DNA of 64,000 bases from Desulfofundulus salinus. Lineage in GTDB: Bacteria; Bacillota; Desulfotomaculia; Desulfotomaculales; Desulfovirgulaceae. A program made the position numbers and the translations under genes. Position 1 is the first letter of the stretch. The number at the start of each line of letters is the position of its first letter. The notes beneath the pieces were generated by a model. That model was not told the origin of the DNA. It made no database searches and saw nothing but the letters and a program-made list of their open reading frames with translations. This document shows, piece after piece, positions 964-54,914 of this stretch. The stretch covers positions 581,195 to 645,194 of the forward strand of contig NZ_RBWE01000001.1 in the NCBI RefSeq assembly GCF_003627965.1, given 5' to 3'.

Positions 964-2874
964 ATGGTCAAGGTAACCTTAAAAGATGGTTCCGTGCGGG
1001 AATACGAGCCCGGTACTCCTTTGAGCCGCATAGCGCAGGACATCAGTCCCCGCCTGGGCAAGGAAGCCCTGGTGGCGGCGGTGGACGGGCGGCTGGTGGA
1101 CTTGAGCTACCCTTTACACAGGGATGCCGCCGTTGAGTTCTACACCTTTGAAGATGAGCCGGGGCGGGATGCTTTCCGCCATAGCGCCGCCCATGTCATG
1201 GCCCAGGCCGTGAAGCGACTCTTCCCGGAAGTCAAGCTGGCCATCGGCCCGGCCATTGCTGAGGGGTTTTACTACGATTTTGATGCGGAAAAGCCCTTCA
1301 CGCCTGCGGACCTGGAGAAAATTGAAAAGGAAATGCAGGCCATTGTGAAGGAAGATCTTCCCTTTAAACGGTTTGAAGTATCCCGGGAGGAGGCACTGGA
1401 GCGGTTTTCTGCCGCCGGGGAAAAGTACAAGGTGGAGCTTATCAATGAGCTGCCGGGAGATGCGGTAATTTCCTGTTACCAGCAGGGTGAATTCGTGGAC
1501 CTCTGTGCCGGTCCCCACATTCCTTCCACCGGCAGGCTGAAAGCCTTTAAGCTCACTTCCGTGGCCGGGGCTTACTGGCGAGGCGACGAGAGAAATAAGA
1601 TGCTCCAGCGCATTTACGGCACCGCTTTTCCTAAGAAATCCCAGCTTGAAGAATACCTCTTCCGTATTGAAGAGGCCAAACGCCGGGATCACCGGAAGCT
1701 GGGAGCGGAGCTGGACCTGTTCAGCATCCAGGAAGAAGGGCCGGGCTTTCCCTTTTTCCATCCCAGGGGCATGGTCCTGCGCAACCAGCTGGAACAATTC
1801 TGGCGGGAAGAGCATTACAAGAGGGGTTACCAGGAAATCCGCACGCCCATCATCTTAAACCGCTCCTTGTGGGAAAGGTCGGGGCACTGGGAACACTACC
1901 GGGAAAACATGTACTTTACCCGGATCGATGACGTGGAATACGCCATCAAGCCCATGAACTGTCCGGGGGGCATCCTGGTGTACAAGAGCCGCCTGCACAG
2001 TTACCGGGAACTGCCCATTCGCCTGGCGGAACTGGGTCTGGTGCACCGGCACGAACTTTCCGGTGTGCTCCACGGCCTCATGCGGGTGCGTTGCTTTACC
2101 CAGGACGATGCCCACATCTTCATGTTGCCCTCCCAAATCCGGGAAGAGATCATCGGGGTCATTGACCTGGTGGATTATTTCTACAGCATCTTTGGTTTCA
2201 ATTATAAAGTGGAACTCTCCACCCGTCCCGAAAAATCCATGGGCTCCGACGAGATCTGGGAGATGGCTACCACTGCCCTGGAAGAGGCCTTAAAGGCTAA
2301 AGGTATGGCGTATAAGGTAAATGAAGGGGACGGCGCCTTTTACGGGCCCAAAATTGACTTCCACCTGGAGGATTGCCTGGGGCGTACCTGGCAGTGCGGC
2401 ACCATTCAGCTGGATTTCCTCATGCCGGAGAAGTTTGATCTTACCTACGTTGGTGAGGACGGCCAGAAGCACCGTCCGGTTATGATCCACCGGGTGGTGT
2501 TTGGCAGCATTGAACGTTTTATCGGCATCCTTACCGAACATTTTGCCGGTGCCTTTCCCACCTGGCTGGCCCCGGTCCAGGTCAGGGTTCTGCCCATTGC
2601 CGACCGGCATGCCGGCTACGCCCGGCAGGTGGTGGAGCGGCTGGAAAGGGAAAATATCAGGGTAGAGCTGGACGCCCGCAATGAAAAGGTAAATTACAAA
2701 ATCCGCGAGGCCCAGGCACAAAAAATACCCTACATGCTGGTGGTGGGTGACATGGAGGCCCGGGAAGGCACTGTGGCTGTCCGCCACCGCGCCCGGGGGG
2801 ACCAGGGTGCCCTGCCCCTGGAGGAATTTATCGCCCGCATTCTGGAGGAAATCCGCACTAAAGCTATTGGTTAG
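964..2874 (+). CDS. thrS: Threonyl-tRNA synthetase
   Basis: 636 aa, the usual length. Order: TGS domain (about 1-65), the second additional/editing domain with HSAAHVMAQAVKRLFP and a CAGPH motif (about 70-235), the class II catalytic core with motif 2-like residues and a zinc site (MNCPGG about 330), and the C-terminal anticodon-binding domain (PVQVRVLPIADRHAGYA). The ATG at 964 is preceded by AAAGGGG with good spacing. The longer in-frame start at 874 would lie inside the T-box and is not used. It charges tRNA-Thr in the cytoplasm. Confidence 0.97.
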   Translation: MVKVTLKDGSVREYEPGTPLSRIAQDISPRLGKEALVAAVDGRLVDLSYPLHRDAAVEFYTFEDEPGRDAFRHSAAHVMAQAVKRLFPEVKLAIGPAIAEGFYYDFDAEKPFTPADLEKIEKEMQAIVKEDLPFKRFEVSREEALERFSAAGEKYKVELINELPGDAVISCYQQGEFVDLCAGPHIPSTGRLKAFKLTSVAGAYWRGDERNKMLQRIYGTAFPKKSQLEEYLFRIEEAKRRDHRKLGAELDLFSIQEEGPGFPFFHPRGMVLRNQLEQFWREEHYKRGYQEIRTPIILNRSLWERSGHWEHYRENMYFTRIDDVEYAIKPMNCPGGILVYKSRLHSYRELPIRLAELGLVHRHELSGVLHGLMRVRCFTQDDAHIFMLPSQIREEIIGVIDLVDYFYSIFGFNYKVELSTRPEKSMGSDEIWEMATTALEEALKAKGMAYKVNEGDGAFYGPKIDFHLEDCLGRTWQCGTIQLDFLMPEKFDLTYVGEDGQKHRPVMIHRVVFGSIERFIGILTEHFAGAFPTWLAPVQVRVLPIADRHAGYARQVVERLERENIRVELDARNEKVNYKIREAQAQKIPYMLVVGDMEAREGTVAVRHRARGDQGALPLEEFIARILEEIRTKAIG

Positions 2875-47755: not shown

Positions 47756-47935
47756 CCTTTTAAAGAGCTGCGCTAAAGGGACAGGTCTTTAAAATTTTTT
47801 GGCGTGGAGGCAATGCCGTTTTTACCAGCAATTTTACGACGGGGTTCTGGGACTAAGGTTTGGGAAGTTTGTGAGCGGGAAAATTTCTGGACAGGGTATA
47901 CCTGTTGTGCTATAATTTAGGCAATTGAATAAAGT

Positions 47936-48193
47936 GGACGGGTGCTCCCTGCCGGTAAAGACAGGGATAGAGGGAAGTCAGTGAAAATCTGACGCGGTGC
48001 CGCCACTGTGAATGGGGAGTCCGCCACACAAAGCCACTGGCCCAGCACTCAGTTAATTTGATTCTGCTGTGACAGAGATTAGCTGATGATAAAGATTAAA
48101 GTAGCAATGAACGGAAATAAGCATGGCTGAGTGCTGGGCTGGGAAGGCGTGGTGGGGCAGTGATCCATGAGCCAGGAAACCTGCCCGTTCCTT
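47936..48193 (+). promoter_or_regulatory. Cobalamin riboswitch
   Basis: Core GCCGCCACTGTGA (about 48000) and the 3' B12 box GAGCCAGGAAACCTGCC (48169-48185). A peripheral arm is enlarged: CCCAGCACTCAG (about 48041) pairs with CTGAGTGCTGGG (about 48128), with about 70 nt inside. Outer pairing uses GGACGGG and CCCGTTCC. It controls cobalt uptake by cbiMNQO. A TATAAT lies at 47911. Confidence 0.95.
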
Positions 48194-48253
48194 TTCACCG
48201 TTTGTACCTACGGTCCATGGGGAGGTGAAAGAGGTTAGAGTATGGATGCTTTT

Positions 48254-48291
48254 ACCCCTGCACCCGGACACGCAGGGGTTGTTAGTTTTTT
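48254..48291 (+). terminator. Cobalamin riboswitch terminator
   Basis: ACCCCTGC (48254-48261) pairs with GCAGGGGT (48272-48279), then a T run. Confidence 0.8.
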
Positions 48292-48308
48292 AAAAATGTC
48301 AGATTGCA

Positions 48309-48496
48309 GGAATAGGTGCTTTATCCCGAGGGATAAGGCTTAAAGGGTGATGTGGTCCACTGTCCGGGGAGCCCCTTCAACTTTTTTAAGGAAACTTTGG
48401 GTGACTTGAGGGGGCCATGACCTGAGGGCAGCAGAGGACATGCCTATTCCACTCCTCAGTATCTGTACCGGGGGAGCGGTGGAGCATGTCCTTTTT
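48309..48496 (+). ncRNA. Structured leader RNA of unknown class with terminator
   Basis: GGAATAGG (48309-48316) pairs with CCTATTCC (48443-48450) as an enclosing stem. Inside are a hairpin TTATCCC / GGGATAA (about 48321) and a ten-pair stem GCCCCTTCAA / TTGAGGGGGC (about 48379 and 48402). The 3' arm of the outer stem is shared with a terminator: GGACATGC (48436-48443) pairs with GCATGTCC (48484-48491), then T5. This is riboswitch-like architecture. I do not recognise the class; the gene behind is cbiM. Confidence 0.55.
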
Positions 48497-48515
48497 GTGT
48501 TCACACGGTTACATT

Positions 48516-48544
48516 ACCCCCCGGCACCAGGTCGGGGGGTTTTC
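48516..48544 (+). terminator. Third hairpin terminator before cbiM
   Basis: ACCCCCC (48516-48522) pairs with GGGGGGT (48534-48540), followed by TTTTCTTT. Confidence 0.7.
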
Positions 48545-48603
48545 TTTGTGATGGTTGGGCGGGCCGCTTGCCGGGTGACCTTATTTATAAGGGAGGTCTT
48601 TTT

Positions 48604-49350
48604 ATGAGGAAGAATACGGGGATCCTTTTATCCATTCTCTTTCTTCTTTTCCTGTTCTTTCCCCAGCAAAATGCCTGGGCCATGCACATAATGGAGGGGT
48701 TTCTTCCCTTAAAGTGGTGTCTTTTCTGGTATGCTCTGACCTTACCGTTTCTCGTTGCAGGTATCCTGTCCATTCAAAAGGCCGTAAAGGTTGACCCGGG
48801 TGTGAAAATGCTCCTGGGGCTGGCTGGTGCCTTTGCCTTTGTCCTTTCGGCTTTGAAACTTCCTTCCGTTACCGGCAGCTGTTCTCATCCCACCGGCGTC
48901 GGGCTGGGGGCCATACTTTTCGGGCCGTGGGCCATGAGCGTATTGGGCTGCATCGTGCTGCTCTTTCAGGCGGTTCTGCTGGCTCACGGCGGCTTAACCA
49001 CGCTGGGGGCCAACACCTTTTCCATGGCGGTGGTGGGCCCCCTGGTGGCCTACGTTATTTACCGGTTGGGTGAAAGGTTGGCCCTGCCCCGGTGGCTTTC
49101 GGTATTTTTGGCTGCCTTTTTAGGTGACCTGTTGACCTATGTTACCACGTCCATACAATTGGCGCTGGCCTTTCCCGCTTCCCATGGCGGGGTGGTAGCG
49201 GCCATGATCAAGTTCATGGGTATCTTTGCGGTAACCCAGGTGCCGCTGGCCATCAGCGAGGGTATTCTGACCATTATTGTTTTTAACTTCCTGGTTGCTC
49301 ACAACCGCCATGAACTGGAACAACTGCGAGTCTTATCCCGGGGGGTATGA
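48604..49350 (+). CDS. cbiM: Cobalt ECF transporter S component CbiM
   Basis: 248 aa. After a hydrophobic leader the mature sequence begins [10 protein letters not shown], the CbiM N-terminus whose His coordinates cobalt; about seven membrane helices follow. ATG 48604 with GGGAGG upstream; the longer frame from 48568 adds nothing conserved. Start of cbiMNQO, behind a cobalamin riboswitch. Confidence 0.95.
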
Positions 49351-49685
49351 GAATGAGAACCGGTGTAAAAAACCTGTTATTGATTTTCATTGTCCTGGTA
49401 CTGGCTGTCTTTCCTCTGTTGATGAATAAAAATGCTGAATTTGGGGGGGCCGATGAACAGGCAGAGAAAATGATTGGAGAATTACAGCCGGATTACCAGC
49501 CGTGGTTTGAATCCGTGTGGGAGCCTCCCAGCGGGGAGATCGAAAGCTTGCTCTTTGCCCTGCAGGCAGCACTGGGTGCTGGATTTATCGGCTATTTCAT
49601 AGGGTTCTACCGCGGCTGCAGGGGGAACCACGTCAAGCGAAATCAACCCGGGGAGTTGTTAGGGGAGAGAGATACTGGTGTTTAA
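49347..49685 (+). CDS. cbiN: Cobalt transport protein CbiN
   Basis: 112 aa. N-terminal membrane helix, periplasmic part with [12 protein letters not shown] and [35 protein letters not shown], the CbiN layout with two helices. It overlaps cbiM and cbiQ by a few bases. The first two Met codons (49347, 49353) are both possible starts. Confidence 0.92.
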
Positions 49686-50460
49686 AATTGACCAGTATGC
49701 ATATACCAGCAGCCTGCGCCATGTTCATCCCGGAGAAAAATTCGCCTTTGCCATGCTTACCATGAGTATATGCCTGGCGGCTTCAAGCGTCCTGGTACCT
49801 GCCCTGGTCACCTGTTTGACGGCGGCGGCCATAATCCTGGTCGCCCGCGTACCGGCACGCTTTTACTTCAGACTTTTGTTGCTGCCTCTGGGTTTTCTGG
49901 TGGCCGGGCTGCTGGCCATCACCCTGACCATCTCCCGGGAACCCGACCCGGCGGTTTGCGGGTTCGCTATCCGGGGGATTACCCTGGGTGTAACCATACC
50001 GGGCCTTTATCATGCGGCCCTGCTTTTTACAAAGTCCCTGGGGGCCGTTTCCTGTCTTTACTTTTTATCTCTGACCACTCCCATGGTGGAGATTATTTCT
50101 GTCCTGCGCCGGTTAAAGGTGCCTGCCCTGCTCATTGAATTGATGGGCCTGGTCTACCGTTTTATCTTCGTAATCATGGAAACAGCCGGTAGAATGTACA
50201 TTTCCCAGACCTCACGCTGTGGCTATGCCGGTCTGAAGGCGTCCTATCGATCCCTGGCTCAGCTGGTATCCAACCTTTTTGTCAAGTCATGTTACCGCTC
50301 CCAGGCCCTTTTCACCGCCCTCTTGGCCAGGGGTTATACGGGAGAGATACGGATGTGGGAAGACCCCCGTCCGGTATCCAGGAAAAATCTGGCCCTTATT
50401 GCCCTTGTAGATTTTATCCTGCTGGTTCTGGTTCTGGTGAGCTGGAGGTGGCCTGTTTGA
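49678..50460 (+). CDS. cbiQ: Cobalt ECF transporter T component CbiQ
   Basis: 260 aa, membrane protein with the two coupling motifs ending in Ala-Arg-Gly: SQTSRCGYAGLKASYRSL and ALFTALLARGYTG. GTG 49678 overlaps cbiN. It couples ATP hydrolysis by CbiO to CbiM. Confidence 0.93.
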   Translation: MFKIDQYAYTSSLRHVHPGEKFAFAMLTMSICLAASSVLVPALVTCLTAAAIILVARVPARFYFRLLLLPLGFLVAGLLAITLTISREPDPAVCGFAIRGITLGVTIPGLYHAALLFTKSLGAVSCLYFLSLTTPMVEIISVLRRLKVPALLIELMGLVYRFIFVIMETAGRMYISQTSRCGYAGLKASYRSLAQLVSNLFVKSCYRSQALFTALLARGYTGEIRMWEDPRPVSRKNLALIALVDFILLVLVLVSWRWPV

Positions 50461-54409: not shown

Positions 54410-54725
54410 AGTTCACGGATAAAGACTATGAAGGGGAGCGAGTAACCTGTCTTCCAGGCTGCAGAGAGCCGGGGTAGCTGCGAACCGGCGCCGGAGCAGG
54501 TGAAAGGATCGCCCCGGAGTCGCCAGCTGAAAGGCGTCTCTTGTAGTAACGCCGATTAAGCCGGGCCGGGTTGGTCACCCGTTACCAAAGCCGTGTCCTG
54601 GTGGGGACACATAAGGGGTCCTTGCCGTGAGGCAAGGGCAAGCAGGGTGGTACCGCGCGAGGATTTACCTCTCGTCCCTGGCAGTTTTCTTTGGGCTGCC
54701 GGGGCGGGAGGTTTTTAATTTTTAT
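54410..54725 (+). promoter_or_regulatory. T-box leader, isoleucine-specific
   Basis: T-box AGGGTGGTACCGCG at 54644-54657. Stem I apical AGAGAGCCGG and GAACCGGC, and the specifier ATC at 54508-54510 in the context GAAAGG-ATC-GCCCCGGAG, aligned to the Thr leader. A terminator pairs CTCGTCCC (from 54671) and GGCAG with CTGCC and GGGGCGGGAG, then T-rich. Ile as specifier suits the ilv operon. Confidence 0.92.
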
Positions 54726-54754
54726 CCCACAAAACAAGTACATAGGGTTTGTAC

Positions 54755-54914
54755 GGAGGGAAGTGTACCTAGGGTTCCGCCCCGCTTGGGCGGGGGACTG
54801 GACCAAGCGGTACAGGCCGCCGGTGAAAAATCGCGGCGGTTACACCGTGGGGATAAAAGACCCGAGCGGATAGGTTCCACTCTGTGGGAAATATCGTATC
54901 GGGTCTTATTTTTT
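54755..54914 (+). promoter_or_regulatory. ykkC-family riboswitch, probably ppGpp class, with terminator
   Basis: Conserved ykkC blocks are present in order: CTAGGGTTCCG (about 54769), GGACTGGACCAAG (about 54795), ACACCGTGGGGATAAAAGAC (about 54842), CCCGAGCGGATAGG. Non-guanidine ykkC RNAs (subtype 2) in front of branched-chain genes are ppGpp sensors. The terminator pairs AAGACCCGA (54857-54865), inside the aptamer, with TCGGGTCTT (54899-54907) and T6, so ligand binding should turn expression on. It sits in tandem with the T-box. Confidence 0.85.

Follow-up and report, generated by a model that had tools for sequence, protein, structure and literature searches.

Known corrinoid riboswitches and riboswitch tandems

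Cobalamin riboswitches (Rfam family RF00174, clan CL00101) contact B12 through P5/L5, the L5-L13 kissing loop and J6/3, as in the TteAdoCbl and env8 structures. The kissing loop is needed by published corrinoid riboswitches, repressing as well as activating, among the latter the cobT riboswitch of Alkalihalobacillus halodurans (PMC10653944). In TPP/HMP-PP tandems, an OFF switch for the end product is followed by an ON switch for a precursor, whose aptamer shares sequence with the terminator (PMC6478431). A review of tandems counted 131 TPP/HMP-PP cases and 26 AdoCbl doublets; a tandem of AdoCbl riboswitch and cobalt sensor might be expected according to the same source, but was not found (PMC9481103). 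Our literature search on tandem cobalamin riboswitches upstream of cbiM returned no description of the element presented here, an older passing mention of degenerate tandem B12 elements being possible.

Organisation of the locus

The window, i.e. the whole stretch of DNA analysed here, comprises 64,000 nucleotides from Desulfofundulus salinus. The features of the locus are as follows.

47923-48202, + strand: canonical cobalamin riboswitch aptamer (RF00174), first member of the tandem; cmscan 107.3 bits, E 6.8e-26
48220-48278, + strand: expression platform of the first switch; the 3' arm of P13, GGTGAAAG, is complementary to CTTTTACC, which precedes T1
48254-48278, + strand: stem-loop T1, CCCCTGC..GCAGGGG (from sequence)
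48309-48450, + strand: second element, an RNA derived from a cobalamin aptamer and devoid of P5/L5; covariance models R1 (173 bits) and R2 (95.6 bits), covariation
48309-48316, + strand: P1 (closing stem), 5' strand GGAATAGG; fold, covariation
48443-48450, + strand: P1, 3' strand CCTATTCC, common to the closing stem and the 5' arm of T2; sequence, fold
48318-48339, + strand: P2 hairpin with a CGAG tetraloop; both-side changes in 7 of 9 pairs over 18 relatives
48340-48354, + strand: J2/3, whose 5' end is the conserved UUAAA also present in canonical cobalamin aptamers
48355-48358 and 48436-48439, + strand: short predicted P3 (GTCC/GGAC), which encloses the P6/P7 hairpin
about 48360-48431, + strand: long P6/P7 hairpin; P6 CTGTCC/GGGCAG, internal loop GGGGA/CATGA
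48371-48380 and 48406-48415, + strand: P7; both-side changes in 8 of 10 pairs (18 relatives)
48381-48405, + strand: apical loop of P7; 3' end GAC, then UUG
48436-48496, + strand: terminator T2, an extended P13-like hairpin from GGACATGC (48436) to GCATGTCC (48491), with T5 at 48492-48496
48516-48547, + strand: third terminator T3; stem 48516-48539 plus TTTTCTTT (terminator scan)
48604-49350, + strand: cbiM, S component of a cobalt ECF transporter; ATG at 48604, PF01891 (7e-57), TIGR00123
49347-49685, + strand: cbiN, after cbiM (PF02553)
49678-50460, + strand: cbiQ, after cbiN (PF02361)

In the first switch, the GGTGAAAG/CTTTTACC duplex amounted to -14.3 kcal/mol. Pairing of the P13 3' arm ahead of a terminator is the customary antiterminator of B12 OFF switches and, by analogy, the first switch presumably follows the OFF mechanism of known corrinoid riboswitches.

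A first-pass annotation of this DNA had proposed an unassigned riboswitch-like RNA in tandem with the cobalamin riboswitch, displaying a closing stem, two internal hairpins, a terminator arm overlapping that stem and a further terminator ahead of cbiM. This description was borne out throughout: P1 and both hairpins were recovered in sequence and fold, the 5' arm of T2 includes the 3' strand of P1, and T3 lies between T2 and the cbiM start codon. No plus-strand ORF of at least 60 aa was found across 48309-48496. According to cbiM and its leader, the closest named genomes were a MAG labelled Desulfovirgula, D. thermosubterraneus, D. australicus and D. thermobenzoicus.

Elsewhere in the window, positions 54419-54870 held a T-box (RF00230) and, 75 nt further on, a match to RF00442 (ykkC/guanidine-I), with ilvE-ilvD-ilvB-type genes downstream. 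This pair looks to us like the T-box/ppGpp (ykkC subtype 2a) AND arrangement that is already known, rather than a guanidine switch. Two more pairs of cobalamin aptamers were encountered in the same genome, at C1:1170895-1171539 and C1:2233872-2234297 (L183, L185, L190 and L191); in the pair at C1:2233872-2234297, the second aptamer scored 30 bits, just under the Rfam cut-off.

Relationship to the cobalamin riboswitch

The element belonged to no family of Rfam 15, and only terminator-like chance matches appeared at E < 10. RF00174 (cut-off 31.5 bits) gave no match in 48200-48620 even at E < 10, nor did the element match AdoCbl RF01482, AdoCbl-variant RF01689 or NiCo RF02683. Model R1, built from nine Desulfofundulus-type elements only, nevertheless matched canonical cobalamin aptamers end to end (E 1.7e-8 to 2e-5), which identifies the element as a cobalamin-riboswitch derivative, a descent that the first-pass annotation had overlooked. 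In the R1 alignment to canonical aptamers, the element displayed P1, P2 with the RF00174 signature AGGUGC...GCUUAAA, and J2/3; UUAA followed P2 in nearly all variants. Also retained were a P6-like helix at the position of P6, the NAUGA strand after P7 (AUGA internal loop), a P13-like hairpin (CACC...GGGAGGUG) and, in some members (L020, L022, L126, L133 and L145), P4. The regulon is likewise common to both.

In contrast to RF00174, the element lacks P5/L5, the kissing loop, the AGGAGACC motif of J6/3 and the GCCACU/GGGAAGGC peripheral domain. The P5/L5 signature (CCGCnACUGU) was present in none of the 85 variants and the region was missing from the alignments, so that an L5-L13 kissing loop is impossible. 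None of these variants displayed the AGGAGACC motif either; instead of the J6/3 core AGCCAGGAGACCUGCC, the window has GGGCAGCAGAGGACATGCC, and the core was replaced in the relatives too. The P13-like stem, unlike its canonical counterpart, is extended by a P1 strand into a terminator. Another departure from the canonical aptamer was found at the tip of P7, where a closing A-U pair was present in 85 of 87 rows and the loop ended in AAC, UAC, GAC or CAC (NAC before UU) in 80 of 85 variants, whatever its length (5-26 nt), while the remaining P7 pairs covaried freely. Elements fell below the Rfam cut-off except L123/L044 (32.7 bits) and L126 (59 bits), which exceeded that of RF00174 yet were already devoid of P5; judged by their sequences, these are intermediates between canonical aptamer and element. 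Altogether, the element is a cobalamin-riboswitch derivative that has lost its pocket and probably has a new ligand.

Stability and covariation of the fold

Compared with dinucleotide shuffles, the fold displayed a z of about -3, with equally good shuffles in 2 of 200 and 1 of 200 cases; this and the covariation ruled out a chance fold. Among nine relatives, 98.3% of pair cells were retained and five pairs had changed on both sides. Over 18 diverse relatives, both-side changes affected 18 of the 27 pairs of P1, P2 and P7, and the covariation score reached 0.589, versus 0.275 when shuffled and at most 0.21 with partners slid. The alignment of 87 rows displayed 91.5% of cells paired (71% when shuffled) and 575 double-change cells (at most 213 in shuffles), pairing figures which are biased upward because the rows are related and had been aligned to the structure. 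The slid control and a MAFFT alignment were free of this structure-fitting bias. By these comparisons of sequences, the relatives of 48309-48450 are genuine structured RNAs.

Distribution of the relatives

BLAST with the element uncovered relatives in each of the five further genomes of the genus covered by the search, as well as in related genera, some genomes carrying two copies; a BLAST against plasmids gave no match. Weaker R1 matches within the order were of two kinds, either canonical cobalamin aptamers or second elements downstream of one, and these second elements were invisible to Rfam. A scan anchored on cbiM in named genomes added examples from Thermincola, HGW-Firmicutes-8, Peptococcaceae and Desulfotruncus. 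Model R2, constructed from 18 diverse members, had matches in 39 of the 113 genomes of the class and in 36 of 398 genomes sampled from the phylum, canonical aptamers being counted in. Removal of duplicates, canonical aptamers and two doubtful matches left 85 distinct variants, spread over many Firmicutes families. The excluded R2 matches (L157 and L158) had no canonical neighbour, unrelated genes and E values above 0.003. A lack of homologous structures, which would have told against the first-pass annotation, is contradicted by these 85 homologues; relatives, too, have the element upstream of cbiM.

A canonical cobalamin aptamer lay directly upstream of 84 of the 85 variants (68 according to Rfam, 16 according to a sequence signature), which thus displayed the conserved arrangement of a two-input tandem, a second structured element, equipped with a terminator of its own, after a complete riboswitch. 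The sole singlet, L145 (1501-1632; identical in L173), occurred in two genomes of one genus; it bears P4, is preceded by a promoter-like sequence in place of a canonical aptamer, and has cbiM downstream.

Genes downstream of most variants were cbiM (the commonest class, cbiN and cbiQ being present or not), cbiJ (precorrin-6A reductase, about 30), surface proteins (12) or btuF-type corrinoid uptake (4); cbiK, a corrin methylase and the predicted transporter DUF2162 were also found behind some variants. Since variants precede cbiJ, btuF-type, surface-protein, cbiK and methylase genes, the element tracks the B12 regulon, which is wider than cobalt transport.

Several loci departed from the simple tandem. 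L121 displayed a row of one canonical aptamer and two variants (1301-1434 and 1501-1640, minus strand) with a DUF2162 gene downstream. DUF2162 recurred behind the element in L148, and L156 had a similar gene there, which suggests that DUF2162 is a corrinoid or cobalt transporter. In L023 (1226-1911), a triple array in the order canonical-variant-canonical preceded a surface-protein gene. Second copies in two Desulfofundulus genomes (L012 in G003 and L015 in G005) formed a canonical-plus-variant leader whose downstream gene was not cbiM but one with an HDIGKI motif (HD-GYP-like).

Predicted switching mechanism

P1 and P3 are mutually exclusive with T2, the strand 48436-48450 being common to them. 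T2 folded at -30.9 kcal/mol. The unconstrained fold, which corresponds to the T2 state, reached -81.8 kcal/mol versus -66.7 kcal/mol with P1 forced; given this advantage of about 15 kcal/mol for the T2 state, termination would be the default and stabilisation of the aptamer would lead to readthrough. For complementarity of the P1 3' strand to downstream sequence, 24 of 85 loci ranked within the best 5% of their shuffles, where 4.2 would be expected. This duplex test is the basis of the claim for P1-strand pairing; an earlier local-folding test, which separated loci from shuffles weakly (5.6 versus 4.0 of 8 nt), was set aside. The 5' arm of T3 is complementary to 48464-48485 within the P13-like hairpin (-20.5 kcal/mol), so that this hairpin, once freed, could block T3 as well. 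A good U-tract was present at T2 in 39 of 75 loci; where it is lacking, termination may take place at T3 instead.

The following course of events is proposed. A duplicated cobalamin riboswitch would have lost P5/L5 and with it the kissing-loop pocket for B12, and been reshaped toward another molecule (X), while its P13-like hairpin, lengthened by the P1 3' strand, would have become T2. Transcription would pass the canonical B12 OFF switch with T1 before the second aptamer is made. With ligand bound, P1 (and P3) would keep the strand needed by T2, T2 would be blocked, and the freed P13-like hairpin would pair with the 5' arm of T3 and block it too, turning cbiM ON. In the absence of ligand, T2, being the more stable, would form and transcription would stop. 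The resulting logic would be 'NOT B12 AND X'.

The second element is thereby predicted to be an ON switch placed after a B12 OFF switch, a NOT-A-AND-B gate. The ON logic is predicted from equilibrium folding, whereas co-transcriptional folding makes P1 first. The HMP-PP riboswitch (thiS motif) behind TPP is alike in its OFF switch in first position, in sequence common to aptamer and terminator and in its predicted NOT-A-AND-B gate. The element is unrelated to it in sequence and structure, however, and its aptamer derives from the class of the first aptamer itself. With the activating cobT riboswitch of A. halodurans (PMC10653944) it has in common the corrinoid lineage, the ON logic (predicted for the element) and an aptamer-side helix that excludes the terminator. 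The cobT riboswitch keeps L5, needs the kissing loop and uses P13 as antiterminator, whereas in the element P1 competes with the terminator.

Nature of the signal

As the B12 core is lost and at least 85 relatives lie nearly all behind a B12 sensor, a different signal is probably sensed. We regard 48309-48496 as the probable second riboswitch of the tandem, with an aptamer that arose from a duplicated cobalamin riboswitch, without P5/L5, and was reshaped for another molecule. From the analogy with TPP/HMP-PP tandems, X would most likely be a metabolite of the corrin pathway, such as a precursor, or else a related corrinoid signal, our best guess being a corrin-pathway intermediate. Of 59 carriers of the element, 53 had CbiD, compared with 82 of the 199 genomes sampled, although ancestry confounds this comparison. 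Genus g48 (4 of 4 genomes) and genome G012 bear the element and displayed no CbiD, which weakens the case for an intermediate as ligand. Only tentatively might these RNAs constitute an undescribed riboswitch class, with 85 or more members, that arose from the cobalamin riboswitch through loss of the ligand core. As ON switches, they would sense a new ligand, for instance a cobalt-free or late corrin precursor, and form a natural NOT-B12-AND-precursor gate controlling both cobalt uptake and the synthesis of corrins.

Descent from a cobalamin aptamer and membership of the same regulon would also fit an element that still binds cobalamin in a diminished pocket and does no more than sharpen the response to B12, as in a pseudo-cooperative doublet of the kind of the 26 AdoCbl doublets (PMC9481103); true canonical doublets do exist (e.g. 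L061, and two in the genome of the window). This seems unlikely, since none of the 85 variants has P5/L5, the kissing loop or the AGGAGACC motif, the kissing loop being required for repression and activation alike in published corrinoid riboswitches (PMC10653944), and the P1/T2 arrangement predicts ON, contrary to the first switch. Somewhat less probable still is a conserved regulatory leader that is recognised by a protein or by some other RNA and not by a small molecule. The NAC motif tips a hairpin of variable length and would suit a docking site too, but the origin of the element is a riboswitch aptamer, no regulator gene was linked to it, and its distribution tracks the B12 regulon in many lineages.

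Cobalt (or nickel) ions as the signal appear quite improbable. The first-pass annotation had suggested that the signal was perhaps the metal, and cbiM is indeed the downstream gene both in the window and in the largest gene class, while a NiCo/AdoCbl tandem had been considered plausible, none being found (PMC9481103). The likeness to the NiCo riboswitch is confined to a location near cobalt genes and a proposed response to Co2+; its fold is another one and the element displayed no Rfam similarity to it. Moreover, relatives also precede cbiJ, btuF-type, surface-protein, cbiK and corrin methylase genes, and a predicted ON response would have the wrong sign, with the importer on at high cobalt. 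A functionless, decaying duplicate of the upstream riboswitch is hardly credible: conserved parts of RF00174 are missing and an intact copy adjoins, but the strong covariation over many families, by which a decayed copy was rejected, is accompanied by a new loop motif and a kept P1/terminator overlap, and the singlet L145 has a promoter-like sequence of its own before cbiM.

Significance

Ligand changes in the variant riboswitches known so far came about mostly through point changes in the pocket. Here the whole sub-domain holding the B12 pocket is gone, and the RNA is still kept beside its intact parent in many Firmicutes lineages. Members of the class, the singlet included, are diverse enough for direct testing. 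If another molecule is sensed, this would be an instance of a new aptamer built out of one half of its predecessor, and the element would supply the missing second input for cobalt genes that was expected, though not found, in the review of tandems (PMC9481103).
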